DNA of 64,000 bases from Chloroflexota bacterium (GTDB taxonomy: Bacteria > Chloroflexota > Anaerolineae > Anaerolineales > Villigracilaceae): assembly GCA_021787595.1 (NCBI GenBank), contig JAJYLQ010000010.1, positions 1 through 64,000 of the forward strand, in the 5' to 3' direction. Of the stretch, positions 44,234-59,300 are shown piece by piece. The stretch's first letter is position 1. The number at the start of each line of letters is the position of its first letter. The position numbers and the translations under genes were made by a program. Under the pieces are notes generated by a model, which was given only the letters and a program-made list of their open reading frames with translations, was not told where the DNA came from and ran no database searches.

Positions 44234-44809
44234 ATGGGCACATCAACAAATCAACGTTCGCCGAGGACGCCGAATTGGAAATCCGTTGAGGTTGCATATA
44301 CTCATCCTGGTATTACAATCCAAAGAACTGCTCAAGAAATTTGGCGGGCAGCAGTAAACGAGCCTAACGGAGGATTAGTAAGTGGTTTACGCAGCCCTAT
44401 CATCGCACAATGCCTGGAGGTAGTGCAAACTTCCCATTCCGCCACAGATGCAGCACTACAGGTGAAGCGTTTGCTTGCCCTGTCGGGCCAGGCTTCTCTT
44501 GCCGGCGAGATTGCACAGAGAGCTGCTGTAATTACCCATGAAAGTAAAGGGAATCGAACCAATGCCTTCGTGAAATCCTTATTTTCGGAAGCCAGTAACT
44601 ATTTGGTTTCAAGAGACCTGCCTGGTTATGTTGGATCAGCAAAGAGAGTGTTAACAGTACAAGATGCTACTGCACTTAAGTCATCCATTATTCGAGAAGT
44701 CTCATCCAATGTTAATTCGATTCCAAAGCCGTCAGGAAAGTTAAGTAGTCCCAGAAACTGGCAAAAATTCGTAAACAATGTAGTTGATCATCTTTCGGGG
44801 GGTAAGTAA
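44234..44809 (+). CDS. qatB: QatB-like protein
   Basis: 191 residues, mostly helical after an extended N-terminus. It begins MGTSTNQRS; QatB proteins commonly begin with MGTS, so after removal of Met the protein would expose a glycine. A basic C-terminus (SGKLSSPRNWQKFVNNVVDH) also fits. It lies 2 bp after the nuclease gene and 4 bp before the QueC-like gene. The assignment rests on this start, size and position. A QueC-like enzyme may modify its N-terminus. Confidence 0.6.
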   Translation: MGTSTNQRSPRTPNWKSVEVAYTHPGITIQRTAQEIWRAAVNEPNGGLVSGLRSPIIAQCLEVVQTSHSATDAALQVKRLLALSGQASLAGEIAQRAAVITHESKGNRTNAFVKSLFSEASNYLVSRDLPGYVGSAKRVLTVQDATALKSSIIREVSSNVNSIPKPSGKLSSPRNWQKFVNNVVDHLSGGK

Positions 44810-44813
44810 ATCC

Positions 44814-46118
44814 ATGAACAAAGTCACAGTTGTTTTTGATGAAAATAGAGATGTGAAAAACGTTTTGGGGTTATGCCCTGATGTCAACTTATATACTGGC
44901 AGGAAACAATTCATAGAGAAATTTGGCAACCCAACAACGCTAGAGGAGGATTTACTCATACTAGGAGCCGCTATTTTTGCAACAGACTTAGCTATTAAGC
45001 GCGGCCAGCAACACAATTTCATAAGAAGCATTGAACTAACTATACCCGTTGTAAATTTGCCAGCGTTCCAGAATGTTTCAGAAGACATAATCTACGCATT
45101 ACATGTGCTTAGTGGTGATGCATGGAAAATCAAGTTTGTACGTAGGCCAGGGCGACCAGAATGGACAAAAGACTGGGGTCCTCAACAAACCGGAAAAGTA
45201 TTGCTGTTTTCCGGTGGATTGGATTCTTTCGCTGCAGCTGTATCCTTGGCCAATGAAACCACCCGAATTCAGCTAGTAAGCCATGTGACAGCAAATCAGG
45301 TTATTTCAGGAACCCAAGACTATCTAACAGATTATCTGAATCGTGCGCTTGGTGGTAAGTTCTCAAGAGTGGCATTTCGCGTGACAGGGATTGGAAAGCC
45401 GACAAAAGGATTTCCTTTTCCGCAGGATAAAGACAGAGAGGAAACCCAGAGGACGCGCTCCTTTATGTTCCTATGTCTTGCAGGGCTGGTGGCGCGCAGA
45501 CAGGAATATCATGATGTGGTAATGATTGCAGAAAACGGGCAAATGGCAATTCATTTACCGCTCTCGGCTGGGCGAATCAGCGCATTCTCAACTCATACGG
45601 CCCATCCAGAGTTTGTTACACTAATGTCAAGCATCCTATCAAAAATCCTCAATTACAAAATTAACATCGAGAACCCGTTCTTGTACAAGACGAAATCTGA
45701 GGTGGTCAAACTTATCCTTCCAAAACATAAAGAAGTAATTGCCCAGACAGTGAGCTGCTGGAGGGCAAACAGGGTGTCTAATTATCATCATTGTGGAATC
45801 TGCGTCCCCTGCTTAATCCGCCGAATTGCATTGGAAAGCAATGGCATTGCCTTGCCTGAATATGAAAGAGATCTGTTACAAGAAAACGTTGCTCAATTGA
45901 GCGCCGATGACGATGGGAAACGAAATCTTGTCGATCTGTGTGAATTCATCAACAGCTTTAAGCAAAACCAATCTTTAGCAGAATTGCAGTTATTGTTTCC
46001 AGAATTGGCCACAGATTCATATGATGTCGGTCGTGTAATAAGAATGTACAAACGATTTGCCATCGAAGCATTGACCGTCTTTAAAGCCTATCCAGAAGTG
46101 CTGAAAATCATGGGGTGA
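44814..46118 (+). CDS. qatC: QatC-like (QueC-family) protein
   Basis: 434 residues from MNKVTVVF after GGGGGG. An N-terminal 120-residue extension precedes the PP-loop ATPase domain with SGGLDS (133-138) and the C-terminal zinc site CWRAN...HCGICVPC, as in 7-cyano-7-deazaguanine synthase. QueC itself is only about 225 residues, so the length fits QatC. No queD, queE or queF lies near, which argues against queuosine synthesis and for the defence role of QatC. It probably uses a deazaguanine precursor with ATP. Confidence 0.85.
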   Translation: MNKVTVVFDENRDVKNVLGLCPDVNLYTGRKQFIEKFGNPTTLEEDLLILGAAIFATDLAIKRGQQHNFIRSIELTIPVVNLPAFQNVSEDIIYALHVLSGDAWKIKFVRRPGRPEWTKDWGPQQTGKVLLFSGGLDSFAAAVSLANETTRIQLVSHVTANQVISGTQDYLTDYLNRALGGKFSRVAFRVTGIGKPTKGFPFPQDKDREETQRTRSFMFLCLAGLVARRQEYHDVVMIAENGQMAIHLPLSAGRISAFSTHTAHPEFVTLMSSILSKILNYKINIENPFLYKTKSEVVKLILPKHKEVIAQTVSCWRANRVSNYHHCGICVPCLIRRIALESNGIALPEYERDLLQENVAQLSADDDGKRNLVDLCEFINSFKQNQSLAELQLLFPELATDSYDVGRVIRMYKRFAIEALTVFKAYPEVLKIMG

Positions 46119-47079: not shown

Positions 47080-47364
47080 ATGAATAACACTTATTCACCA
47101 CCGAAGAGATATTTAGATCGTGGGATCACCCGCTCTCTGCAAGATGCTAGCCGGGATCATGCCGTTATTGTTCTGACTGGTGCTCGTCAGGTTGGGAAAA
47201 GCACACTTCTACTCAACTCCGAGTCATTCCGAGATTGGCGTTGTCTTAGCATGGTTAAATTTGATTTCCGGTCTCAACTCTTCCGAGAATCAAAAGCACT
47301 GCGGCTCAGTGGAGATCGCATCATTCCAGAAGTTGCATCAAACGCTACTTCGCAATTTTCGTAG
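47080..47364 (+). pseudogene. truncated AAA_14-type ATPase
   Basis: The frame begins with RYLDRGITRSLQDASRDHAV and Walker A TGARQVGKSTLL, the N-terminus of the AAA_14/DUF4143 ATPases (normally about 400 residues). Similarity is lost after about 75 residues. The end overlaps the hsdM 3' end, so the rest was replaced when the restriction locus was joined here. Confidence 0.65.
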
Positions 47365-48870
47365 TGCGTCGCTAAGTTCCTTTCCCTTCGCTTCGATCAC
47401 ATCCAGCAACTCATCATGTGTTCTCAAATCTTCATCGGCTTTTGCGTTCGGATTGACAGCTTTCAAATCATAGTTGCGAGATTCGATTTCTTCGCATGTG
47501 ACTGTCCAACTGCGATCTGAATCGCCGCGCGTGGGAAGCAGACGAAAAAAGTCATCGAAGCGATCCACAGTCAGCGGAGTCTTCTTACCAACTTTTATAT
47601 CCGATAGATCGTAGTACCAAATCTTTTCGGTCTTTTTGCCTTTGGTGAAAAAAAGCAAATTGGTTTTGACGCCCGCGCCGGCGGCAGTAAAGACCCCACC
47701 CGGCAAACTGACAATCGCCCACACATCGCAATCATCGAGCAGCTTTCGTTTGGTTTGAACGAAAGCCGTTTCATTAGTGCGGAATAATACACCTTCATCC
47801 AACACGATCCCACAGGTTCCGCCATCTCGCAGGCTATCAATCACATGCTGCAAGAATAATACTTGAGTTGCGCCAGTTTTGTATGCAAAACGAGTTTGGG
47901 CTTCTTTGCCTTCCTTGCCGCCAAAGGGCGGATTGGTGAGCACCACATCAAACAATGATGGCGCGCCTTGAAACAATCCGCCGAAAGTTTCTTGACCGGT
48001 GAGCGTATTGCCGTGCCACAAATGCGGACTATCAATACCATGCAAGATAAGATTGGCAAGCGCAATCGGGTAGATCAAGTTCTCCTTCTCGCGCCCGTAA
48101 AAAGTCGAGTGTTTGAGCGCTTCGATTTGGTCCGGTGTAGCAGACGCGCCCAACGCGTCATTCAGGAATTCGTAGGATTGTGCCAAAAATCCGCCTGTGC
48201 CCGCACCCGGATCATAGATGGTTTGTCCAAGTTTCGGATTGACCGCTTTGACCATCACGCGGATGATCTGACGCGGCGTGAAGAATTGTCCGCCATCGTT
48301 GCCCTTCTCGCCCATTTTGAGAAGCAAGCCTTCATAAACTTGCGACAAGGCAAAGATGTGCGTCGTATCAATATTCTCATGACGGATTTCGTGGACTTTA
48401 TCGAGCACATCCAGAAAATTCTTTTCGGTGTCGACGCGCACATGCTCGACACCAGAAAGAATTTCGCTGATGACTTTTTTTCGCGGCGTGGCGTTGGGCC
48501 GATCCCGCAAGCCTTTGAGATGCGGCAATAAATCGCCGTTTACGAATCCAAAGAATGCACCCAGCGCGCCGTTTTGCAATTCAATTCGCTTTTTGCCATC
48601 AGGTGCAGCCCAATCCTGCCAGCGATACGGCGACTTGAGCGAAGGCGTGAACTTTACTCCGACGGCTTCGGCTTGTTCGGCTTCCTGCTCCTCGCGGTCA
48701 TCCAAGATTCGCAAAAAGAGAATCCACGTTAGCTCAGGGACATATTGCAACGCGCCGGCGCAATTGGAGCGGCGCAAAATATCGCAGATGCCCCAGACAT
48801 AAGAATCAAGGCTGGCTTGCGTGGTGAACTTACGAGAGTGGTTGCTGTTTGAACTGTTTGACTTTGCCAT
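47338..48870 (-). CDS. hsdM: type I restriction-modification DNA methyltransferase, HsdM
   Basis: 510 residues. An N-terminal helical domain precedes the adenine methylase with motif I DPGAGTGGF and the catalytic NPPFGG. It should methylate adenine together with HsdS. It is the last gene of the locus in the direction of transcription, separated from hsdS by cargo genes. Its first 38 codons (MAKSNSSNSNHSRKFTTQAS, then LDSYVWGICDIL) are duplicated in the linker ORFs at 49810 and 53765. A symmetrical promoter lies 13 bp upstream. Confidence 0.93.
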   Translation of the reverse strand: MAKSNSSNSNHSRKFTTQASLDSYVWGICDILRRSNCAGALQYVPELTWILFLRILDDREEQEAEQAEAVGVKFTPSLKSPYRWQDWAAPDGKKRIELQNGALGAFFGFVNGDLLPHLKGLRDRPNATPRKKVISEILSGVEHVRVDTEKNFLDVLDKVHEIRHENIDTTHIFALSQVYEGLLLKMGEKGNDGGQFFTPRQIIRVMVKAVNPKLGQTIYDPGAGTGGFLAQSYEFLNDALGASATPDQIEALKHSTFYGREKENLIYPIALANLILHGIDSPHLWHGNTLTGQETFGGLFQGAPSLFDVVLTNPPFGGKEGKEAQTRFAYKTGATQVLFLQHVIDSLRDGGTCGIVLDEGVLFRTNETAFVQTKRKLLDDCDVWAIVSLPGGVFTAAGAGVKTNLLFFTKGKKTEKIWYYDLSDIKVGKKTPLTVDRFDDFFRLLPTRGDSDRSWTVTCEEIESRNYDLKAVNPNAKADEDLRTHDELLDVIEAKGKELSDALRKLRSSV

Positions 48871-48882
48871 GGTTTTTGGTTG

Positions 48883-48910
48883 TTGACATCTTGATTATAG
48901 TGGTTATAAT
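48883..48910 (+). promoter_or_regulatory. perfect sigma-70 promoter, possibly bidirectional
   Basis: TTGACA (48883-48888), a 16-bp spacer and TATAAT (48905-48910) point toward the ncRNA. The palindrome ATTATAGTGGTTATAAT (48894-48910) also places a TATAAT on the minus strand 24 bp upstream of hsdM, though without a good -35 there. Confidence 0.8.
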
Positions 48911-48914
48911 ATAG

Positions 48915-48990
48915 TTAGCCTGCATCGTATGAACGCCGACTTCATGTCGTTGGAGGGTATCCTCCTAGTACGAAGGTGGGCTAATTTTAT
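48915..48990 (+). ncRNA. structured RNA beside a DUF3800 gene, candidate DUF3800-type RNA
   Basis: Starting about 5 bp after the -10 box, TTAGCC (48915-48920) pairs with GGCTAA (48979-48984) and CGTA (48926-48929) with TACG (48969-48972). These enclose two hairpins, CGAC-TTCAT-GTCG (48937-48949) and GGAGG-GTAT-CCTCC (48952-48965). A U-rich ATTTTATTT follows. It overlaps the last codons of the DUF3800 gene in antisense. Structured RNAs near DUF3800 genes have been described (DUF3800-I to XI motifs); I cannot say which, if any, this is. Confidence 0.55.
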
Positions 48991-49807
48991 TTAAGGCAGT
49001 CAAAGGTCGGCGAGGTGTGTAATAATTCTCATTTTTTGCATAGTGACTACTGTCGTACAGGTCTACCACCAACGCTACCTTATTTACGATGAAATTGTAG
49101 TAGCGTGTTTCTCCTCTTTCAAAAACACGTTGAACAGCCCAGCACATATAATCGCTCACATTGAGTAACGGCTCGGTGCGCGGATATTGCACATTGAAAG
49201 CAATTCGTGTTTTTATTTGATCGGGTGTCTTACGCTTTAGAAAGCGCACAGTTGCTTTTTCCAGAGCATCTTCAAACACAATGTTACGTGTGACCTTACC
49301 GCGCTGAGCAATATCAAGAATCAAATCGCCGCCACCTTGTAGTTTGTTTTTCAGCAAATGAGAAAGTAAATCAGCATAAAACTCGGACTCATGACTATTA
49401 TGCTTGTGAACAAAAATTTCGGGAATTTTTCGCCCAACCACTGCTTCAAAACTGAAGTCTAATGACTGAAGATAATCAAAGAATACTTTTCGAGCCTCTT
49501 GCGGATCATCGGTTGCATGAAAGTAATATCCACCCGCCTCCGCTTTCTTTTTTTGAATACTCGGCACTTCTTTGAAGTAGGGATCGTTCGCCACTTGGTT
49601 TTGCAAACGACGGATTTCCTGACGAATCGGCTCTAACGGCGCATGGAATTTCACCATCCCCAAAATAAAACAAAGAGATACGCCATTTTGAATTCCAATA
49701 ATCGGCACGTGATCTTTCCCATAGAAAGTTGTGTCGCCTGCTTCATCTAAGAACCGATGCCGAGCAAAGGCTAGATTATCAGCGGAGTTTTTCTTTTTTG
49801 CTACCAT
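48965..49807 (-). CDS. DUF3800 protein
   Basis: 280 residues. The N-terminal FLDEAGD is the DUF3800 signature, an RNase H-like fold with acidic residues; further acidic positions are in GGDLILDIAQRG and SDYMCWAVQRV. The biochemical role is unknown; the family is common near mobile and defence genes. Its ATG lies 2 bp after the stop of a linker ORF, so its translation is probably coupled. A structured RNA and a strong opposing promoter lie at its 3' end. Confidence 0.85.
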   Translation of the reverse strand: MVAKKKNSADNLAFARHRFLDEAGDTTFYGKDHVPIIGIQNGVSLCFILGMVKFHAPLEPIRQEIRRLQNQVANDPYFKEVPSIQKKKAEAGGYYFHATDDPQEARKVFFDYLQSLDFSFEAVVGRKIPEIFVHKHNSHESEFYADLLSHLLKNKLQGGGDLILDIAQRGKVTRNIVFEDALEKATVRFLKRKTPDQIKTRIAFNVQYPRTEPLLNVSDYMCWAVQRVFERGETRYYNFIVNKVALVVDLYDSSHYAKNENYYTPRRPLTALNKISPPSY

Positions 49808-49809
49808 GA

Positions 49810-49977
49810 TTAAACTGCTCCTCCAAACGCTATCCGCAACAGCGACACGGACAGATGGCTAATTTCGGCGCAATTGGAACGCCGCAATATATCGCATATG
49901 CTCCAGACATAGGAATCGAGGCTGGCTTGGGCGGTAAATTTTCTATTATTCCTGTTGGAGGTAGAAAGTTTTGGCAT
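49810..49977 (-). CDS. linker mini-ORF: HsdM head fused to HsdS tail
   Basis: 55 residues. Residues 1-36 (MPKLSTSNRNNRKFTAQASL, DSYVWSICDILRRSNC) copy the HsdM N-terminus, and residues 38-53 (EISHLSVSLLRIAFGG) copy the HsdS C-terminus. The junction after TCCAATTGCGCC is the same as in the 53765-53935 copy. The ATG overlaps the PIN gene stop (TAATG), and the stop is 2 bp before the DUF3800 ATG. It probably serves to carry ribosomes to the next gene. Confidence 0.75.
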   Translation of the reverse strand: MPKLSTSNRNNRKFTAQASLDSYVWSICDILRRSNCAEISHLSVSLLRIAFGGAV

Positions 49978-50486
49978 TAGCGTAGCTTAATTTTCAGAGT
50001 GCGTAGTAATTCATATGTGGAAACATACTTGATCTCAAAATGACTGCACATATTCGGTATCTTGATTTCTCCAATGAAACGGCCCGTTGATTTGTCCAGA
50101 TTCTCAGTGTTCTTGACCCCTTCCATTGTTACAACTGTTAGATCGTATGCCATCGCATGAGCAATCACCCACGGGTCAGCACCCTTGAGAAACTCACGAA
50201 TCCAGTGCTGGTCTTGATAACGTCCATTCGCAAACTCCACGACTTGCCGATAAGCCTCATTCACCTTTGTATCAGGCTCAATAAACAATATCTCGTGGTA
50301 TTCTTTTGCCCACTGTTTAAGATCATCCTTACCCTCTTTCAATTCATCATACACAGCAATAGGGCTCATGATAGTACCATTCTGGGCAAGGGTAACCAGA
50401 GCACTCCAGAAGGGTGGAGCAATATCAAAGGCATAGTACGATCTATGCGCTTGGGTATAAACACTCGTGTCAAGACAGTAATCCAT
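49977..50486 (-). CDS. DUF4411 PIN-like protein, toxin candidate
   Basis: 169 residues. The start YCLDTSVYTQAHRSYYAFDI, the acidic ELKEGKDDL and the later GADPWVIAHAMAYDLTVVTM follow the PIN-type RNase pattern of DUF4411, with Asp residues at the catalytic positions. It follows the XRE-ImmA gene by 9 bp, the usual pairing for this family. It would be the toxin, with the XRE-ImmA protein as regulator and antitoxin. Confidence 0.82.
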   Translation of the reverse strand: MDYCLDTSVYTQAHRSYYAFDIAPPFWSALVTLAQNGTIMSPIAVYDELKEGKDDLKQWAKEYHEILFIEPDTKVNEAYRQVVEFANGRYQDQHWIREFLKGADPWVIAHAMAYDLTVVTMEGVKNTENLDKSTGRFIGEIKIPNMCSHFEIKYVSTYELLRTLKIKLR

Positions 50487-50495
50487 TGATTGCCC

Positions 50496-51650
50496 CTAGT
50501 GAATTCTGTCCATCAAATTAGAAACCTTGGCGGGACTTGTATTCAACAAGCGAGCAGCCTCGACATAAGTAATACGACCACCGGACACTGCGAAGACAAG
50601 TTCTGTCGTGAACCTTCGGCTGTTTCTAGTGAATAAATTGTTATAGAAACTCCCTCCCCTCCCCTTTTTGGTTGGCTTGCTCGCTTGCAATACATCCTGA
50701 AATGCCTGAATGAATTCATTCCTTGGAATTAATTCCAATTCATAACTGCGCCGCAAGATCACTTGAGCGCTAACTCGAAAATACTTTGCAAGGTTTTGTG
50801 CATTGTCCACTGCGTCCCGATACTTATCCCAACGCCGAATAAACGCAGATTTGGCAACGAGAAACTCAGCAGCTATATGGTTACAAAATGACTCAACCTT
50901 TTGGAATTCTTTCTGATCTGCTGTAATTTCTGGATTGGAGATTCCGCTTGTGCCAGTCCAGAGGTGAACAAGTTCATGTACTAAGGTAAAAATTCGAGGG
51001 GCAGTAAAGTCCACAGAGTTGATAAAGATCAAGGGGGCAAACTCATTCGCCAACGCGAATCCGCGAAATTCTTCAATAGAGAGTTTACGACGTGTATTGT
51101 TTCCAACAATACCACTCTGCAGCACTAGAATACCTGCACTTTCCACCTTTTGAATAAGCTTACGTAGATGCTCATCCCACGCAGTCATCGAAGCCGCGAA
51201 ATCTGGAGGAATTTCTAGAGTTTGGCGCATGTTCTGAATTATGTCATTTGGGTCGCTTTCAAGGGAAAATCTTCCAATAAATTCAAAGGGTGCTATTCTT
51301 TCTTCCTTGCGCCATTCAGCATACCAGTCCCTTTTCCTCAACGCATCATCTAGCACTTCCTGAAGATTAGTGCTAATCTCAATATTTTCTTTACCAGGCA
51401 AAGTACGAAAGTCTGCAATTGGCATCAAAATTTCAGGGGGTTCGCGAAGAACGAGATATCCCAACGGAACACTAAGAGCAGAGGCCGCCTTTTGTGCTTG
51501 ACGATAGTTGGGATATTCGGTTTCACGTTCCCAAGCAAGGATTTTGTCGGGCTTTGTATTGACAGCCTTGGCTAACCGCTCAATCGAAATGTCGGCTCTT
51601 TCTCGTGCCCATCGTAAAACATCGCCCGTGATTTCAACGGCTGTCGTCAT
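50496..51650 (-). CDS. XRE-ImmA/IrrE regulator with metallopeptidase domain
   Basis: 384 residues. An N-terminal helix-turn-helix (ISIERLAKAVNTKPDKILAW) is joined to a zinc peptidase with HELVH (in FTLVHELVHLWTG), as in ImmA/IrrE proteins that cleave repressors. A palindrome, TTCTGCCATTGGCAGAA, lies in its promoter (51680-51696), which suggests autoregulation. With the PIN gene it forms a toxin-antitoxin unit that has its own promoter within the restriction locus. Confidence 0.88.
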   Translation of the reverse strand: MTTAVEITGDVLRWARERADISIERLAKAVNTKPDKILAWERETEYPNYRQAQKAASALSVPLGYLVLREPPEILMPIADFRTLPGKENIEISTNLQEVLDDALRKRDWYAEWRKEERIAPFEFIGRFSLESDPNDIIQNMRQTLEIPPDFAASMTAWDEHLRKLIQKVESAGILVLQSGIVGNNTRRKLSIEEFRGFALANEFAPLIFINSVDFTAPRIFTLVHELVHLWTGTSGISNPEITADQKEFQKVESFCNHIAAEFLVAKSAFIRRWDKYRDAVDNAQNLAKYFRVSAQVILRRSYELELIPRNEFIQAFQDVLQASKPTKKGRGGSFYNNLFTRNSRRFTTELVFAVSGGRITYVEAARLLNTSPAKVSNLMDRIH

Positions 51651-51679
51651 AGTAAATATCCTATACAGATTTTAACACT

Positions 51680-51696
51680 TTCTGCCAATGGCAGAA
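51680..51696. promoter_or_regulatory. probable operator of the XRE-ImmA gene
   Basis: Perfect 7-bp inverted arms TTCTGCC/GGCAGAA around a 3-bp centre, 30 bp upstream of the ATG, next to a TAAAAT-like -10 on the minus strand. Confidence 0.65.
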
Positions 51697-51702
51697 TCGC
51701 AA

Positions 51703-51786
51703 CTATATATTTCCTTCAAATGCCTCCCGTAACATCGTCGCGGGCAAACGGCTGATTTCGGCAAGCTATGATCCTGTAGCTATCAT
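51703..51786 (-). pseudogene. decayed linker mini-ORF with HsdS tail
   Basis: The ATG overlaps the trypsin-like gene stop (ATGA), but the frame stops after MIATGS at TAG. It continues in the same frame as LAEISRLPATMLREAFEGNI and a stop, a copy of the HsdS C-terminus. Unlike the other linkers it is broken. The next unit has its own promoter and does not need coupling. Confidence 0.7.
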
Positions 51787-52610
51787 GGTTTGGATGTTTT
51801 CAACCATTCATCTACTAAATTAGCAAACACTGAAACAAGGCAACCAAAGTTAATCCTTCTTTGCCGAAGCCAACTACTTTGAATAGCTATTATCCAGTAT
51901 CGGTGCCAGTCTTGGCTAAATCCAATAATGGGGCCTCCGCTCATACCATCTATATCTTCAAGTACATAACCACTATCAGCGAGTTTGCCGATAAATCTAG
52001 GAAATTTGGTTGCTGAAACTCCCTCCGGGATTTGATAAAGTCTTTTAATACCGACTGCCGCTGGAGCCACGGATGCAGCCATTCGCTTACTTCCATTATC
52101 ACGAATTGCCATCGTTTGAATAAATTGCTGGGGAAGACCAAGCATAACGTAATTATTCGCGAATTCATCTGGGATACTTTTCCAGTTTTCTTCCAACACA
52201 GGGACGATACTATTTGCCTTCAACAAATCACAATAATTCGGACGTAGGATCACCAAGCCAAAATCAAGCCCTTCCTCCTCATCATTCATGAACAGCTTCG
52301 GAGCATGGGTGTAATCAAACGGGATTGAATATTGGGAAACTGCATTTGGACCAAATTTGTCGACCAACATAACTTCCCTGACTTTGATATTTTTGCTACT
52401 TATCTTTTGCTCGAGGTCTTCAAGAATATGGCCTGCTGTAACAAAGTTCCAGACGCCCTGAATCGATATGATAAAGCCTGAGTAACTAAAGAATTTATCT
52501 TCCCCTGAAGGGACGCCATCAGAATTCATTATTTGATACCATCCCGATAGACTCACCAAATGACGGCAGAAAAACCGAACAAGCTCTTGTAAAGAATCAA
52601 AATCTGACAT
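51783..52610 (-). CDS. trypsin-like serine protease
   Basis: 275 residues without a signal peptide. The catalytic His lies in FVTAGHIL, Asp in GLDFGLVILRP and Ser in DGMSGGPIIG, so the triad looks complete. It should be a cytoplasmic protease. Proteases of this type are known as effectors in several defence systems, usually linked to a sensor. Here the neighbour is a membrane protein, and a linker ORF supplies TGAGGAGGAAAA just before its ATG. Confidence 0.85.
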   Translation of the reverse strand: MSDFDSLQELVRFFCRHLVSLSGWYQIMNSDGVPSGEDKFFSYSGFIISIQGVWNFVTAGHILEDLEQKISSKNIKVREVMLVDKFGPNAVSQYSIPFDYTHAPKLFMNDEEEGLDFGLVILRPNYCDLLKANSIVPVLEENWKSIPDEFANNYVMLGLPQQFIQTMAIRDNGSKRMAASVAPAAVGIKRLYQIPEGVSATKFPRFIGKLADSGYVLEDIDGMSGGPIIGFSQDWHRYWIIAIQSSWLRQRRINFGCLVSVFANLVDEWLKTSKP

Positions 52611-52619
52611 TTTTCCTCC

Positions 52620-52709
52620 TCACACCTTTCCTTCAAACGCCTCCCGCAACAGCGACGCGGGCAGACGGTTGATTTCAGCAACGGGTGATGTTAGTAGATT
52701 CATTCTCAT
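52620..52709 (-). CDS. linker mini-ORF with HsdS tail
   Basis: 29 residues: MRMNLLTSPV followed by AEINRLPASLLREAFEGKV, the latter a copy of the HsdS C-terminus. The ATG overlaps the stop of the membrane protein gene (ATGA), and the TGA is followed by the protease ribosome site. The frame is intact, though the head is unrelated to HsdM. Confidence 0.65.
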   Translation of the reverse strand: MRMNLLTSPVAEINRLPASLLREAFEGKV

Positions 52710-53752
52710 GGTTGACTAGGAACAGATGTATTTGTAACTTCGGGGGTTGCATACGGAATAAGATATGTGTTTTCACTCTTTGGGATGATATACAAACCGG
52801 GATGATAGCTGAAATTCTGCAAATCAACCTTATCCCATTTGATGAATATATAGCTGTCACTATTTTCTCCCAAATCACCAAACGGTCCACTAATACAGCC
52901 TGAACTATCACAAGTCTGAGTAATTGTTCTAGGAAGCTGGATACTATGTGAGGTAACCAATAAAACAGGATGTATATCCCACGATCCACTGCCATAAACC
53001 ATTTTACCAATCTTTGCATTTTCTAGACCTAGATAACCAGAGAGTAGAGCTGAACTAAATAAGATCACCAGAATAATAAGTGAGTTCCTAAAAAACGCAT
53101 CGTTAATCCGATAATTATCTGGTAGTCCTCCAATGACATAAATAGCCCTAACTCTTGGTGGAAGTAGTTTAATTACATCTATTAGCCCTCGGAATCCGAG
53201 AATGCTAGAAAACAGGAATACCAAAAGAGCCAGAGGAATTACATCTGGCAAGTAATCAGATGTTTTTGTTCCAAGGAAAAGCAGAAAAACGACTGTCAGC
53301 ACAACAAAGGTCAAAAATACATAGGGCGTTGTACTCTCTAATAATTCTTGAATGGAGAATAAATCATGAAGCGTCATATTTGTTCTTAGCGATGTCTGTA
53401 ATCTAATAAATATTGCAACGCAATAAATACTCAGAATAATCGCCAATATTATTAGAAGGGATGGAATGCTCTGCGCGATAATTTCGTATATTGGGAGTTG
53501 AATTTTATTCATACTTATCCCATAGAAACCATACCAAGTTACATCATAAATCCAACCAATCCAAAAAAATATAGCAACTCCAAGCAATGTTACTGCTGCC
53601 GACGAAAACCCAAGCACATCCCAATTGATCTCCCGCGGCTTGACAGGTTCAACTGGTCGTTGTATCTCACTAGCAGGTTTCGGTTCTTCAGGTTTCTTAG
53701 TCATACGCTTTCTCGGCGTAGACTTCGCTCTTACTGATTTCTTTTCAGCCAT
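52706..53752 (-). CDS. membrane protein of unknown function
   Basis: 348 residues. A basic N-terminus (KSVRAKSTPRKRMTKKPEEP) precedes about six hydrophobic helices (near 50-70, 90-112, 138-160, 165-185, 225-245) and an extracytoplasmic C-terminal domain of about 100 residues with a Cys pair (TCDSSGCISG). No family is recognised. It follows a linker ORF and precedes the protease gene. It could be the membrane effector or anchor for the protease, an inference from order only. Confidence 0.7.
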   Translation of the reverse strand: MAEKKSVRAKSTPRKRMTKKPEEPKPASEIQRPVEPVKPREINWDVLGFSSAAVTLLGVAIFFWIGWIYDVTWYGFYGISMNKIQLPIYEIIAQSIPSLLIILAIILSIYCVAIFIRLQTSLRTNMTLHDLFSIQELLESTTPYVFLTFVVLTVVFLLFLGTKTSDYLPDVIPLALLVFLFSSILGFRGLIDVIKLLPPRVRAIYVIGGLPDNYRINDAFFRNSLIILVILFSSALLSGYLGLENAKIGKMVYGSGSWDIHPVLLVTSHSIQLPRTITQTCDSSGCISGPFGDLGENSDSYIFIKWDKVDLQNFSYHPGLYIIPKSENTYLIPYATPEVTNTSVPSQP

Positions 53753-53764
53753 AGACTTTCCTCC

Positions 53765-53935
53765 TCACGCCCTTCCTTCAAACGCCTCGCGCAACAGTGA
53801 CGCGGGCGGACGGCTGATTTCGGTGCAATTGGAACGGAGCAGAATATCGCAAATACTCCAGACGTATGAATCAAGACTGGCTTGCGTAGTGAAATTTCTT
53901 ATACTGTCACCGTTTGAGTTATTCAATTTCGCCAT
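53765..53935 (-). CDS. linker mini-ORF: HsdM head fused to HsdS tail
   Basis: 56 residues. MAKLNNSNGDSIRNFTTQAS and LDSYVWSICDILLRSNC copy the HsdM start; EISRPPASLLREAFEG copies the HsdS end. The junction after TCCAATTGCACC is identical in place to the copy at 49810. It starts 15 bp after the pentapeptide gene, and its stop region (TGAGGAGGAAAG) serves as the ribosome site of the membrane protein gene. Confidence 0.75.
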   Translation of the reverse strand: MAKLNNSNGDSIRNFTTQASLDSYVWSICDILLRSNCTEISRPPASLLREAFEGRA

Positions 53936-53950
53936 AGGTTAAAGTATATC

Positions 53951-55318
53951 TTATGAACGTCGAATACGATTACCTGCTACAAATCCCAAGAGACCTACTA
54001 AAAAAATCCCACTAATTGAGAATAAACCAGAAGCCAACTTTACAGCATCATTAGCTGGTTGCAAGCCCGAAAAATTGGTTATGCTTAATCCGCTTAAACT
54101 GTAAAGCAAATAAAGGCGATAACTGAACCAAAACCTATTCCATGAAGATAATAAGGCAAAGTAATCCCGTTCAAGACTGTTGTCCCATATGAACCCACCT
54201 AGTACCGAGAAAAGAATTGGTTCAATGAAAAAAAGCAGGATAACTAACCATCCAATTACTCGCCAGACGCTTTCTCCGTAGTCGCATAGAATTTCAACCA
54301 TCGTATCACCTATCGCATTGCGGCAATTTAGCCCTGCCTTCCCCCATTTTCGTTGCTTGAATGCTGCTCGTCCCTCATCCAAAGATTCAAGTTTTCTCAT
54401 CCGCCGTTCTTTACGATATGCCCAGCTAGCAGAGTCATAATCACCCAAATCATCAAAGTTTTGCTTCAGGTTCCGATAAGCTTCTCGCGCATTTTTATAA
54501 TCTTTATCATCCTCTTCGGCAACTCGACCACCCAAGAGCTCTCGCTTAATTCTTGTTCCATCCAGCCAAGCATCAGTAAAATGAACATTAACTAAGCTGA
54601 CAACAGATGAAAGATCAACATTTTGAAGCTTTGCTCCTTGTAAGTTAACACCCTGCAGGTTAGCTTTTCCAAGGTACGCACCTGCCAGGTTAGCCCAACT
54701 AAGGTTTGCTTTTTGCAGGTTAGCGTCATCAAATCTGGCATTTTGTAGATTGGCACCTACAAGGGAGGCGTCTTGCAAATTTGCCCCGGAAAGATCCGCA
54801 TCTTGAAGGTCGCTTAGATAAAGCTCTGCCCCCATTAGATTAATATTCCAGAGAACGGCTTTTCGGAGATTTACCTTATAAAGATACGCACCTTGGAGAT
54901 TAGCGGATGTTAATCTAACCTCTTCAAGTGTAGCGCCACCAAGAATTGCACCTCTCAAATCAGCTTCATCAAGATCCAGAAGATTGCCATCCCACAATCG
55001 CGGAAACTTAGATTCCCACTTTAACCTATAAGCCAACAAATTAGTTGGACTGAGATCAATTTGGGCTAGCCTGGCACAATAATCATCGCCCCGATCAGGT
55101 AAGATCAGCAAGTGTTCTGGATGATCTTCCATCAATTCAAAAAGCATAGAAATCTTATCCTCTGGTTCTGCGTTTTCTAACCGATCATAAATCTCTCGCC
55201 AACTTGTGTCTGCTGGATCGTGCCAGTGGCAATAATCGCGTCCGAACCCTGCATTCTTCGGGCAAGGTCTGGCTGCGCCACGCCTGTTATCAGGAATTAT
55301 ATATTTACATCTTGGCAT
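53951..55318 (-). CDS. pentapeptide-repeat protein with C-terminal membrane helices
   Basis: 455 residues. An N-terminal Cys/His cluster (MPRCKYI, CPKNAGFGRDYCHWHD) may bind zinc. About 28 tandem A(N/D)LxX pentapeptides lie near residues 115-235, forming a right-handed quadrilateral helix. A charged helical region (EAYRNLKQNFDDLGDYDSAS) and two or three membrane helices (about 350-380, 415-450) follow. Similar proteins occur in defence islands with unknown roles. It directly follows hsdS (27 bp). Confidence 0.85.
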   Translation of the reverse strand: MPRCKYIIPDNRRGAARPCPKNAGFGRDYCHWHDPADTSWREIYDRLENAEPEDKISMLFELMEDHPEHLLILPDRGDDYCARLAQIDLSPTNLLAYRLKWESKFPRLWDGNLLDLDEADLRGAILGGATLEEVRLTSANLQGAYLYKVNLRKAVLWNINLMGAELYLSDLQDADLSGANLQDASLVGANLQNARFDDANLQKANLSWANLAGAYLGKANLQGVNLQGAKLQNVDLSSVVSLVNVHFTDAWLDGTRIKRELLGGRVAEEDDKDYKNAREAYRNLKQNFDDLGDYDSASWAYRKERRMRKLESLDEGRAAFKQRKWGKAGLNCRNAIGDTMVEILCDYGESVWRVIGWLVILLFFIEPILFSVLGGFIWDNSLERDYFALLSSWNRFWFSYRLYLLYSLSGLSITNFSGLQPANDAVKLASGLFSISGIFLVGLLGFVAGNRIRRS

Positions 55319-55345
55319 CTTATAATTCTTCTTCTCCTGCTCTGA

Positions 55346-56515
55346 CTATCCTTCAAACGCCTTCCGTAACAGCGACGTGGGCAGACGGTTGATTTCGGCG
55401 AGTTGTGATTCAAGCATCTCTGTAACTCTTGCTGTTTCGGCAAGTTTGCTTTTTATTTCGTTCGCAATTCTTTCTTGGTCTTCTAAACTTGGCACAGGAA
55501 TATTCAACGCCTTAATGCTCTTGATAACCATGTGCTTCAAGCCCATGCCAGCACCCAATTCTTCAACTTGAGCCAAAACTTGCGGACTTTCTAGTGCATA
55601 GGCAACGAAAAATGGATTCAACTTGTCGCGCATAAGTTTTATCACGGCAACGCTGACAAAGAAACTGAAATCCAAATCCGTATTAACGACACAGGGAATT
55701 CCCAACGTTCCATCTTTTGTGTAAAGAATATCACCCTTTTCTGCTTTCACTCTTTTGCAAAATTCTTTATGAACTTCAATGGATATATAACTCACATTAG
55801 TCAAATCAATTTTTCGATTGACTATATTTCTAACCGTAATAAAAGGAATGCCCTCTGTTTTGTACTTGGGTGTCACATGAGGACCATCCGTAATTTGAGT
55901 TGAAAGGTTGCCAAGTTTTTCAATTTTCCATTTCGTTGTTTCATTGCCAGTGAATATTTCCCTCAAATACGCGGACGGCAATTGCCGCGCGGCTTGCAAT
56001 TGTTCTTCCGCCGCTTTGCGCGCCGACTCGACCGCGGCGAGTTGTTCGTTCAGCCGACTTGCAATCCGCCGCTGTTTTTCCAGTGAAGGGAGCGGAATTT
56101 TGATTGCTAAGAATTCAGGTCGTGTTATATGCTTCATGGTTGCGCCATGTACTTGTGACCTGATTTCATCCATTGTCTCACGAACTGCATAATATAAATA
56201 TTCACGTGTAATAAGTTGATTGTTTTCAACAACTTTGAAAATGTGTTGATTCAATATTGCTTTGTCTCCCCGCCAAATATAAGCATCAAGGGATGCCGAC
56301 CATGAAATTAACAAATCACCATTCTCAACCAAATACTTTTTGTCAAAATCCCCTTGATAATAGTTGAAATATGCATCAATTGAAGTCAAGTTTTGAATCC
56401 GAATAATCGGTAAACCTGACGTTTTCCAGTCGATGGGTTTAAAAGCCATACCATTGATGTATTCAGCAACATCACCTAACTTTGCCAGCTTCCAACCAAG
56501 AGGTAGAGAATTCAT
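55346..56515 (-). CDS. hsdS: type I restriction specificity subunit, HsdS
   Basis: 389 residues with two target-recognition domains (about 1-150 and 195-345), each followed by a coiled helix: QLAAVESARKAAEEQLQAAR and KLAETARVTEMLESQLAEI. The first domain ends PSAYLREIFTG and the second PTSLLRKAFEG, the usual half-repeat ends. It determines the bipartite DNA target. The C-terminal end is the source of the tail copies at 49810, 51703, 52620 and 53765. Confidence 0.93.
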   Translation of the reverse strand: MNSLPLGWKLAKLGDVAEYINGMAFKPIDWKTSGLPIIRIQNLTSIDAYFNYYQGDFDKKYLVENGDLLISWSASLDAYIWRGDKAILNQHIFKVVENNQLITREYLYYAVRETMDEIRSQVHGATMKHITRPEFLAIKIPLPSLEKQRRIASRLNEQLAAVESARKAAEEQLQAARQLPSAYLREIFTGNETTKWKIEKLGNLSTQITDGPHVTPKYKTEGIPFITVRNIVNRKIDLTNVSYISIEVHKEFCKRVKAEKGDILYTKDGTLGIPCVVNTDLDFSFFVSVAVIKLMRDKLNPFFVAYALESPQVLAQVEELGAGMGLKHMVIKSIKALNIPVPSLEDQERIANEIKSKLAETARVTEMLESQLAEINRLPTSLLRKAFEG

Positions 56516-56927: not shown

Positions 56928-59300
56928 TTATGCCGCGAACAACCGTACTTTTGTCTCGCGCAAAATATCAGCAGGGCGACCCATCGCGCGCAACGAATCC
57001 AGTCCGCCGGCTTTTGTCACTTCAGGCGTTTCAAAGATATGCGGGTTCTCCAGGCCATCCGTGCCGGCGCGCGCAAATTGCGATGCTAGCGCCAGCAACG
57101 CTTTCGAGGCGGCTTTGGGCAATGTATTCAGCCAAGCCGTGTGCTTGTACGTAAAGGCTTCGGCGCGCTCCATGCGCTTCTTGGGTGAAAGCCCATAGCC
57201 CAACTCCGCCAGCACATCATACAGATCGTACTCGCCCATCTCATCCAGCGAACGCACCAACAACGCCGAACGCACACCATCGGGTAACGCTTGCAACATC
57301 TCGGCGCGTTCCGGCGGGTTGATCCAATGCGAACGGAACGACTCCAACGTAGGTGCCTGCTCGATCAAGCGCGATGCCAATTGCTCTTTATATTCTTCCA
57401 CTGTAACGGGCATGGCTTTGCCGTCCACCATTGTCAGGATGGAATGACCGGCAGGTGTGACCGTTACATCGAATCCTTCGACCTCGATGGCTGGCTTTTC
57501 GGGAGGCAGATCACCGGTCGGTTCGGACTTCAAGCTGGCGCGCGTCAAAAAAGCTTTGCCAAACAATCGAGTTGCGTTTGTGTAATCGAAGACACGGAAC
57601 ATCAGCTTGCCACTCGGCGGGTGCAGGCGCGTGCCGCGTCCTACCATTTGATAGAACGCAATGGATGAGCGCACATACTTGAAGAAAACCACATTGTGGA
57701 CAATAGGCACATCCACACCCGTGGTCAATAAGTCCACGGTGCAAGCAATGAAATATCTCTGCGAACTGCCTCGTAAGTCCGGCAGTTGGTCGTTGCCCGA
57801 TGATTTCGCTGTGCATTTGAAAGCAAAATGATTATCCGCGTTTGGATTTAATCCTTTTGCTTTGCGCCAATCTGCATAGAGATTATTCAACTCAATTGCG
57901 ACGCGATCGGCGTGGTCATCGGTGGCGCAAAAGATAATCGACTTTTGTTCGGGTCTCCCCGATGCCACCAATAAATCGAACAAATCCTTGCACATAGCTT
58001 TGACGCGATCCGGCAATAATAAGCGACCTTCAAAGCTGGCGGCTTCATATTTGGGTTGCGGTACTTCCGCAACGTTCATTGATCTGCCTGTGATTGCATC
58101 GCGAATCTCTTTATCTTTCATGTCATCGCGCTGCACGCCGGTTTCTTGTTCGCTCTTAGGCTTGTCATCCAAAAAGATGTTGCGCTGGATCACTTCACAC
58201 GCCGCGAGATAGCCGTCTTCCATGCCCTGTGCCATGTCGTATTCATAAACAGGTTCGCCGAAATATTTGAGATTATCCCCGGTGATCTGTTTATCTTCGG
58301 GGGTTGCATCCAAGCCGGTGAGTTGTCGCGGCGTCGCTGTCAAACCTACTTGGATTGCATTCGGGTTGCGCGTCAGCACCTGACTCCACTTGCCCCACGC
58401 CGAACGATGGCACTCGTCAATGATGATGTGACTGAAAGAGTTTTCAGGATAATGTTCTGTCAGAAAACTTGGATCAGATTCTTCGCTATCCACGCCCAAA
58501 GTTTGATACGTGGTAATGTGGATGCGCGCGTTCTTGGCATTATTCGTTCCATCCGCTTTTCGATAAACTTCCGCCGCGTCCGCGCCAAAGACATTTTGAA
58601 ATGCGGCGAGTCCCTGCCCGCGCAATTCATCGCGGTCACAAATAAATAAGGCACGTCGTAATTGTCCCGCGTCCGCAATCCGCTTGAGTAAATGCACAGC
58701 GATAAATGTTTTACCCGACCCTGTCGCCAACGAAAGCAAGGCACGCTTTTCACCTTTGGCAATTCTTTCGAGCACCGCGCGAATTGCCGCATCCTGATAA
58801 TAACGCCGCGTCGCCTCCCCGCCTTGATATTTGACCAGCAATGGCTTTGCCGCTTGCGACTCCAGCGAGAATCCCATTCCAGACTCATATGCGGCGCGCA
58901 ACTCTGCTGGTTTTGGAATCTCCGCCATCGGTCGCGGTTTCAACGTTTTCCCTGTGATGCGATCATACAAAACGAACTGATGCCCGTTCGTGGCGATCAC
59001 AAATGGAACATTCAAGCGCTTGGATTCAGCGTATAGCTTTGCTTGTTCCAACCCATGACCGGGCGGCAAATTATCGGCTTTGGCTTCGATCAATGCCACC
59101 GCAACGGGCTGAGCTTCTGATGTTACTTTGACGCGCAACGTGTAATCTGTGCGTCCCTGAGAACGCTTACGCGGCTTGCCGTCAATGATCTCTACCGCGC
59201 CGGCAGTCTCCTCGCGGCGAATCAAATCCTCTGTCCAGCCGCGAGCATGGAGCGCAGGATCAATCAGTTTGGCGCGAGTATCGGATTCGGAAAGGGACAT
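56928..59300 (-). CDS. hsdR: type I restriction endonuclease subunit, HsdR
   Basis: 790 residues. The N-terminal nuclease has the PD-(D/E)XK core RTDYTL...VALIEAKAD. The SF2 translocase has motif I LATGSGKT, II DECH, III GLTATP and VI QMVGRGTR. A C-terminal helical part binds the methylase complex. It should translocate and cut DNA lacking the host methylation. It is first in the locus. Confidence 0.94.
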   Translation of the reverse strand: MSLSESDTRAKLIDPALHARGWTEDLIRREETAGAVEIIDGKPRKRSQGRTDYTLRVKVTSEAQPVAVALIEAKADNLPPGHGLEQAKLYAESKRLNVPFVIATNGHQFVLYDRITGKTLKPRPMAEIPKPAELRAAYESGMGFSLESQAAKPLLVKYQGGEATRRYYQDAAIRAVLERIAKGEKRALLSLATGSGKTFIAVHLLKRIADAGQLRRALFICDRDELRGQGLAAFQNVFGADAAEVYRKADGTNNAKNARIHITTYQTLGVDSEESDPSFLTEHYPENSFSHIIIDECHRSAWGKWSQVLTRNPNAIQVGLTATPRQLTGLDATPEDKQITGDNLKYFGEPVYEYDMAQGMEDGYLAACEVIQRNIFLDDKPKSEQETGVQRDDMKDKEIRDAITGRSMNVAEVPQPKYEAASFEGRLLLPDRVKAMCKDLFDLLVASGRPEQKSIIFCATDDHADRVAIELNNLYADWRKAKGLNPNADNHFAFKCTAKSSGNDQLPDLRGSSQRYFIACTVDLLTTGVDVPIVHNVVFFKYVRSSIAFYQMVGRGTRLHPPSGKLMFRVFDYTNATRLFGKAFLTRASLKSEPTGDLPPEKPAIEVEGFDVTVTPAGHSILTMVDGKAMPVTVEEYKEQLASRLIEQAPTLESFRSHWINPPERAEMLQALPDGVRSALLVRSLDEMGEYDLYDVLAELGYGLSPKKRMERAEAFTYKHTAWLNTLPKAASKALLALASQFARAGTDGLENPHIFETPEVTKAGGLDSLRAMGRPADILRETKVRLFAA

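Follow-up and report, generated by a model that had tools for sequence, protein, structure and literature searches.

Structured RNAs associated with DUF3800 genes have been catalogued in Rfam as a series of motifs, of which Weinberg et al. are reportedly the source (in 2017), and in the portions of the DUF3800 literature available to us we found none assigning a function to these RNAs. The RNAs of ToxIN and CptIN are tandem repeats that lie upstream of the toxin on the same strand and are cut by it, and in the type III systems studied to date, as far as we are aware, RNA and toxin are encoded on one strand. RatA is a type I antitoxin and an example of cis-antisense control. According to the accessible part of the source, the abiF-motif RNA RCd22 neutralizes the toxic AbiF by direct binding (PMC12373285). 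The available portion of a 2023 study describes TPR-DUF3800 proteins that adjoin Cas12, predicts an RNase H fold for a TPR-DUF3800 protein and notes the link to non-coding RNAs (PMC10910872).

The locus described here lies in a window of 64,000 nucleotides, the whole stretch of Chloroflexota bacterium DNA that was analysed, and comprises a candidate RNA gene that converges upon a DUF3800-type gene within a type I restriction locus. Its features, on the coordinates of the window, are as follows.

47338-48870, minus strand: hsdM of a type I restriction-modification system (Pfam N6_Mtase, HsdM_N), the next gene after the RNA
48883-48910, plus strand: TTGACA-16-TATAAT, predicted sigma-70 promoter from which the RNA would be transcribed (consensus matched at all 12 letters; recurs in homologues)
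48911-48997, plus strand: span of the leave-one-out covariance model R3 (43.6 bits, E 1.9e-9)
about 48914-48990, plus strand: RNA proper, ~75 nt, ends putative
48914-48929, plus strand: 5' arm of the closing stem P1, GTTAGCC ... CGTA (fold, alignment, covariation in relatives)
48931-48934, plus strand: junction GAAC (GAAA or GAAC in relatives; GAA invariant in alignment A2; GAAC also in DUF3800-IX)
48937-48949, plus strand: P2 hairpin, CGAC-TTCAT-GTCG (sequence, alignment, covariation in relatives)
48952-48965, plus strand: P3 hairpin, GGAGG-GTAT-CCTCC (all helix pairs covary in A2)
48965-48968, plus strand: junction CTAG (invariant in A2; its CTA reads on the minus strand as TAG, the stop codon of the DUF3800 gene)
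48969-48990, plus strand: 3' arm of P1 and U-rich end, overlapping the final codons of the DUF3800 gene
48965-49807, minus strand: DUF3800-type gene, 280 aa, predicted RNase HII-like fold (ORF, PADLOC, AlphaFold2)
55346-56515, minus strand: hsdS of the type I restriction locus
56928-59300, minus strand: HsdR-like gene, assigned by eye

The promoter boxes are TTGACA at 48883-48888 and TATAAT at 48905-48910 (+), separated by a 16-nt spacer, and P1 pairs TTAGCC (48915-48920) with GGCTAA (48979-48984) and CGTA (48926-48929) with TACG (48969-48972). A sequence-only reading of the window had proposed exactly this, a perfect promoter followed by an RNA in which one stem encloses two hairpins and the end is U-rich, and both elements were found as described. 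Promoter-like sites numbered four in the region 48700-49200, compared with 1.0 ± 1.0 in shuffles. The start of hsdM (48870, −) lies beyond the promoter, and the gene points away from the RNA; the further suggestion that the TATAAT palindrome could serve hsdM found no support, the other strand offering just a 9 of 12 site (48933-48906). The RNA segment has a minimum free energy of −32.7 kcal/mol (z −2.4, with 4 of 200 shuffles folding equally well), and its opposite strand is about as unusual (z −2.8); the fold by itself is therefore weak and carries no strand information, so that the strand of the RNA is told by its homologues and not by the fold of the window. Beyond P1 and the U-rich end, the window copy showed no further site resembling a terminator. 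By DNA similarity there was no further copy of the RNA in the genome, and a dispersed repeat was rejected because only echoes of 18-24 bases were returned (E 0.7 and 4.6). An integron attC site was also rejected, as the arm order, judged by eye and without a model, does not fit.

The term 'DUF3800 gene', as used in the sequence-only reading, held in part. Against Pfam DUF3800 (PF12686) the window protein scores 16.9 bits and falls below the cut-off of 21, whereas it matches PADLOC DUF3800_VII at 1.4e-16 and its relatives pass the Pfam cut-off in 12 of the 12 genomes that hold them. In alignments A4 and A8 it is homologous to accepted DUF3800 members, with invariant DE.GD, FHA and DY, and an alignment of 75 proteins has D21, E22, G24, D25, F96-H97-A98, E104 and D219-Y220 among its invariant residues. 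Within the protein tree it forms a divergent branch (end branch 2.55, top identity 37 %). No solved structure related by sequence was found for the DUF3800-type family. The AlphaFold2 model (pLDDT 86, pTM 0.86) has as its best structural match the RNase HII 1eke (Foldseek E 8.3e-5; Z 9.4, rmsd 4.0 over 168 residues), and the DEAGD stretch of the protein resembles DEAGRG, a motif of RNase HII. The protein is thus a candidate nuclease of predicted RNase H fold, in which acidic residues are conserved.

Searching 396 genomes of the window's taxonomic class (referred to here as the class) by protein, we obtained 44 matches in 38 genomes, corresponding to 43 genes (one in two pieces). When read by eye, the 3' flanks of these genes have a common core on the opposite strand, in the order GAAA or GAAC, a CGGC..GCCG hairpin, a variable hairpin, CTAG or CTATATCC, and the 3' arm of P1. 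CTAG is found in types 1 and 3 of the RNA and CTATATCC in type 2. Among the type 2 proteins of A4, 8 of 26 aligned proteins end in PGI, the antisense reading of CTATATCCCTGG in the RNA, and this tail looks dictated by the RNA. Models were made from types 1 and 3 (R1, 18 sequences including the window; R3, the 17 without it) and from type 2 (R2, 21 sequences); a MAFFT alignment of all types pooled (A1), in which P3 was misaligned, was left out of the counts. With the window excluded from its training, R3 returned the window site (43.6 bits, E 1.9e-9; E 1.2e-7 in a whole-genome search) and nothing else in the window up to E 10, and R2, derived from the other type, gave a single weak window match at the same site (12.6 bits, E 0.47). 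Together, R2 and R3 detected 70 RNAs in the class (396 genomes; E 0.01 per genome), including those of loci L013 and L042, which R3 detected and an anchor search missed. The genome of the window contains a second DUF3800 gene (G000 contig C33:30097-30911, locus L034; protein match 37 % identity) that is likewise faced by a convergent RNA, whose type is that of the window RNA (91.8 bits). A scan of genome contigs with the single window protein found no relative of it; a profile scan of genome contigs gave 457 relatives, of which the best 80, together with 3 from viral contigs, form the wide set used below.

In the R1 set, 91.9 % of cells pair, compared with 34-46 % for slid structures, and 13 of 22 pairs show changes on both sides (shuffled mean 6.8, with 0 of 500 shuffles as high). 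The corresponding values for the R2 set are 93.7 % and 12 of 24 pairs (shuffles 6.1, 0 of 500). For the 79 RNAs of the wide set (best 80 of 457 plus 3 viral), whose alignment was fitted to the model and so leans towards the model structure, 92.5 % of cells are paired, 19 of 24 pairs change on both sides, and there are 260 both-side-changed cells against 76.8 in shuffles and at most 59 in slid structures. A less extreme measure was that of further pair types, for which 11 and 14 of the 500 shuffles (R1 and R2 sets, respectively) did as well as the real alignment. In the window itself, a G-C pair of P2 has been replaced by A-U, a compensatory change relative to the CGGC/GCCG of its relatives. 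Several pairs are mostly G-U on the plus strand (e.g. columns 10/86 and 27/44 of A2), and this strand is favoured because these pairs would read A-C from the opposite one. The covariance analysis of homologous loci that the sequence-only reading had named as a check thus returned strong covariation, and comparison across relatives shows that the predicted helices covary.

A promoter with at least 10 of 12 letters is present in the 60 bases 5' of the RNA at 49 of 78 wide-set loci (best 80 of 457 plus 3 viral, mostly type 2; one locus was too short), whereas such a promoter occurred in 2.5 % of the Markov shuffles and in none of 74 windows displaced by 300 bases. Where the promoter has at least 9 letters (62 loci of the best 80 of 457 plus 3 viral), its −10 box ends 4 bases before the model start in 38 cases and 5 bases before it in 9. 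From TTGAC to the P2 core, measured by eye, the distance is 62-66 bases in type 1 loci having TTGAC and 50-51 in most type 2 loci; at 53 bases, the promoter spacing of the window therefore resembles type 2. A hairpin followed by a T-run lies 3' of the RNA at 38 of 79 loci (best 80 of 457 plus 3 viral) against 8 of 395 control windows, and these terminators are often inside the coding 3' end of the DUF3800 gene. Comparison of the loci shows a putative RNA gene of ~75 nt with its own promoter, convergent with the DUF3800 gene and ending just inside its 3' end. The family thereby presents DUF3800-associated RNAs as self-contained genes, with a promoter, a fold and often a terminator.

Within the class, 42 of the 43 DUF3800 genes have an RNA by model, all of them antisense at the 3' end (396 genomes), and the remaining gene (L041) has a divergent RNA recognized by eye; no intact DUF3800 gene without an RNA was seen among the 43. 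The statement that the RNA is antisense to the gene end also holds in the wide set (best 80 of 457 plus 3 viral), where R2 detects it at 79 of 83 loci and always in antisense to the gene's 3' end; of the four loci missed, L168, L171 and L176 are truncated at a contig boundary and L177 is just 23 % identical. The 71 RNA-bearing rows of the tree are assigned by their record titles to 14 phyla, mostly as metagenome bins, where stray contigs occur. The junction is CTATA in 74 of the 88 protein-tree rows, CTAG in 13 and another sequence in 1 (14 of the 88 labels were set by eye), and its distribution requires just two changes on the protein tree, the minimum possible for three states, so that gene and RNA appear to travel together. 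Comparison shows a pair that is inherited together across many phyla and, because the same pairing recurs in genomes assigned to 14 phyla, a working partnership between RNA and protein is very probable. This near one-to-one tie to a nuclease-fold protein turns the function of the RNA into a two-plasmid experiment.

RNAs also occur without the gene. For 28 of the 70 class RNAs, the adjoining 400 bases gave no DUF3800 match at E 1e-5; among the 26 of these that were inspected, 12 keep gene scraps (E up to 0.01), consisting of C-terminal tails or of both ends with the middle gone, 11 keep nothing, two (L224 and L237) are cut by a contig end and one (L079) adjoins a distant DUF3800 relative. A promoter of at least 10 of 12 letters is still present at 10 of 18 examined RNAs without a gene. 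As the RNA persists, often with its promoter, where the gene does not, it can outlast the gene, as an antitoxin may; such RNAs would suit an antitoxin, and plain gene decay could leave the same pattern. At L085, L089 and L046 internally deleted DUF3800 genes retain both ends and the RNA with the middle gone, and in the wide set the DUF3800 genes of L100, L110, L128 and L159 are broken by stops.

Within the type I restriction locus, five cargo units occupy the interval 48965-55396, and before each of them stands an hsdS 3' end, first the real one and then four short copies. In two of these scars (53757-53950 and 49802-49976), ~40 codons from the start of hsdM are joined to ~15 from the end of hsdS, with an identical junction in both, and their matches within the genome are confined to this locus. 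The cargo at 49977-51650 (−) encodes an HTH and M78 peptidase protein beside a DUF4411 protein, and from its putative roles looks like an antitoxin-toxin pair. A QatC-like protein at 44784-46118 (+; PADLOC, 3.4e-61) is possibly part of a Qat-type defence operon. In a Pfam scan of the 80 nearest of 309 neighbour proteins, run without a control set, the families included ResIII (7), N6_N4_Mtase (6), Methylase_S (5), N6_Mtase (4) and TypeIII_RM_meth (4), as well as phage integrase (3), Cas1 (1) and unrelated families, among them aminotransferases (3).

The reading that we prefer, plausible though still short of probable, is that the RNA restrains the DUF3800 nuclease by binding it, as one half of a type III-like antitoxin or abortive-infection pair. 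The RNA would be made in excess and fold into a three-helix junction (P1, P2 and P3), it would bind the DUF3800 protein and keep the nuclease inactive, and the nuclease would be freed when the supply of RNA stops, for example upon phage infection. Near one-to-one linkage, a promoter of its own, an RNA that outlasts the gene, the fold, restriction-modification neighbours and the precedent of AbiF tentatively argue for such an antitoxin. Against it, a required cofactor RNA would show the same one-to-one linkage, and the convergent layout is unlike that of the type III systems that we know to have been studied. A second reading is an active ribonucleoprotein, in which a DUF3800 nuclease would attack invading nucleic acid and would need the RNA as its scaffold or guide. 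The predicted RNase H fold, the constant gene-RNA linkage and the restriction-system neighbours would fit, as would the TPR-DUF3800 proteins beside Cas12 with their link to non-coding RNAs, in so far as the accessible text describes them (PMC10910872). We nonetheless consider this rather unlikely, given that by eye A2 and A3 contain no unpaired, hypervariable, guide-like stretch and that the RNAs persist after gene loss.

A further explanation is cis-antisense control, in which expression would stay low through base pairing between the RNA and the 3' end of the DUF3800 transcript or through collision of the two polymerases. Although the RNA has a promoter and its 3' end convergently overlaps the last codons, the overlap is short, and the conserved sequence and the covarying P2 and P3 lie mostly outside it; as pairing with the mRNA would not need these helices, their conservation makes this explanation improbable. 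Copies without an intact gene could be taken as a sign of a trans-acting small RNA that works elsewhere and has the DUF3800 protein as its processing enzyme, which we regard as more doubtful again, the linkage being too strict for a free regulator and no conserved unpaired seed region having been noticed by eye in A2 and A3. That the site is an ordinary terminator or a chance hairpin, with no RNA gene at all, is scarcely credible: a fold z of just −2.4, an opposite strand that folds equally and a window without a terminator-like site might be cited for it, and against it stand covariation, G-U pairs on the plus strand, the recurrent promoter and the leave-one-out model match. Extended beyond this locus, the antitoxin reading raises the possibility, which we rate just slightly below that reading itself, that DUF3800 proteins and their convergent RNAs are unrecognized, multi-phylum, RNA-controlled nuclease defence modules, in which an RNase HII-like toxin would be held by a three-helix RNA transcribed head-on towards it, the catalogued motifs would be antitoxins and the location would often be a restriction-modification locus.

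Among catalogued RNAs, no Rfam family matches the window site, none matches at gathering score in 20 homologous loci, and no Rfam DUF3800 family matches in 12 homologous loci at E up to 5; the proposed Infernal search thus places the RNA in no family listed in the copy of Rfam used. RF02970 (EGFOA-assoc-1) and RF02967 (DUF3800-VII) have no match in the genome of the window. DUF3800-I (RF02969) matched in 0 of 61 genomes of the window's phylum and 0 of 150 of the phylum of G450 (locus L158, Hydrogenophaga), searches in which no positive control matched either, so that these zeros carry no weight. We also sampled 31 other DUF3800 genes, 29 of them from the phylum of G450. Scanning 20 of these for DUF3800 RNAs gave one match, a DUF3800-IX RNA (RF02968) at L194:216-286, which is convergent with a DUF3800 ORF (289-921) and ends at its stop. 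This one copy resembles the window RNA in its succession of P1, GAAC, P2, P3, UAG, P1 3' arm and U-run, in having its own promoter (TTGACA-17-TATTGT) and in its convergent orientation. It differs in P2 sequence and partner protein; moreover, the RF02968 model misses the window RNA, 20 homologous loci at gathering score and 12 at E up to 5, and R3 does not detect the L194 copy. Lacking an Rfam match yet sharing the layout of DUF3800-IX, the window RNA represents a family that is new in sequence and as yet unlisted among the DUF3800-associated RNAs already known. A conserved structured RNA adjoining a DUF3800 gene, which is what defines a DUF3800-associated RNA, was thus found, and the suggestion of a further member is upheld by strong covariation and by the layout and orientation shared with DUF3800-IX; of its supposed 'new arrangement', the sequence family is new, whereas the layout is that of DUF3800-IX.

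A promoter of at least 10 of 12 letters faces the gene end in just 3 of the 31 other DUF3800 genes (0 of 62 controls), so most of them show no such RNA. A search of the 31 for stems bounded by GAA...CTAG, which misses L194 as it has no CTAG, gave one match (L210) against 0 of 238 controls; R1 gave two weak matches in these genes (L201, E 0.48; L210, E 0.6, on the L210 RNA) and R2 none up to E 1. The signature is therefore not general across DUF3800. At L210, which belongs to another DUF3800 subfamily, there is an unlisted convergent RNA of four helices, antisense and just past the stop, with GAAG and CTAG at its junction.

More distant systems share single traits with the pair. PADLOC DUF3800_VII, which we take to be the retron type VII effector, belongs to the same protein family as the window protein (1.4e-16); a retron was rejected, as the reverse transcriptase RVT_1 had no match in the whole genome (positive controls matched in 3 of 14). 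AbiF is a HEPN-type protein and does not have the RNase H fold predicted for the DUF3800 protein. Compared with the ToxIN and CptIN RNAs, that of the window is single-copy and convergent, and the inhibition of a protein by an RNA would be shared if the proposed mechanism is right; the type III layout, with the RNA upstream on the strand of the toxin, contrasts with an antisense, downstream RNA in 42 of 42 model-detected class genes. The abiF RNA motif (RF03085, RCd22), as described in the accessible part of its source, differs in lying upstream of its gene and being co-transcribed with it, and is like the window RNA in being a structured RNA beside a defence-type protein (PMC12373285).
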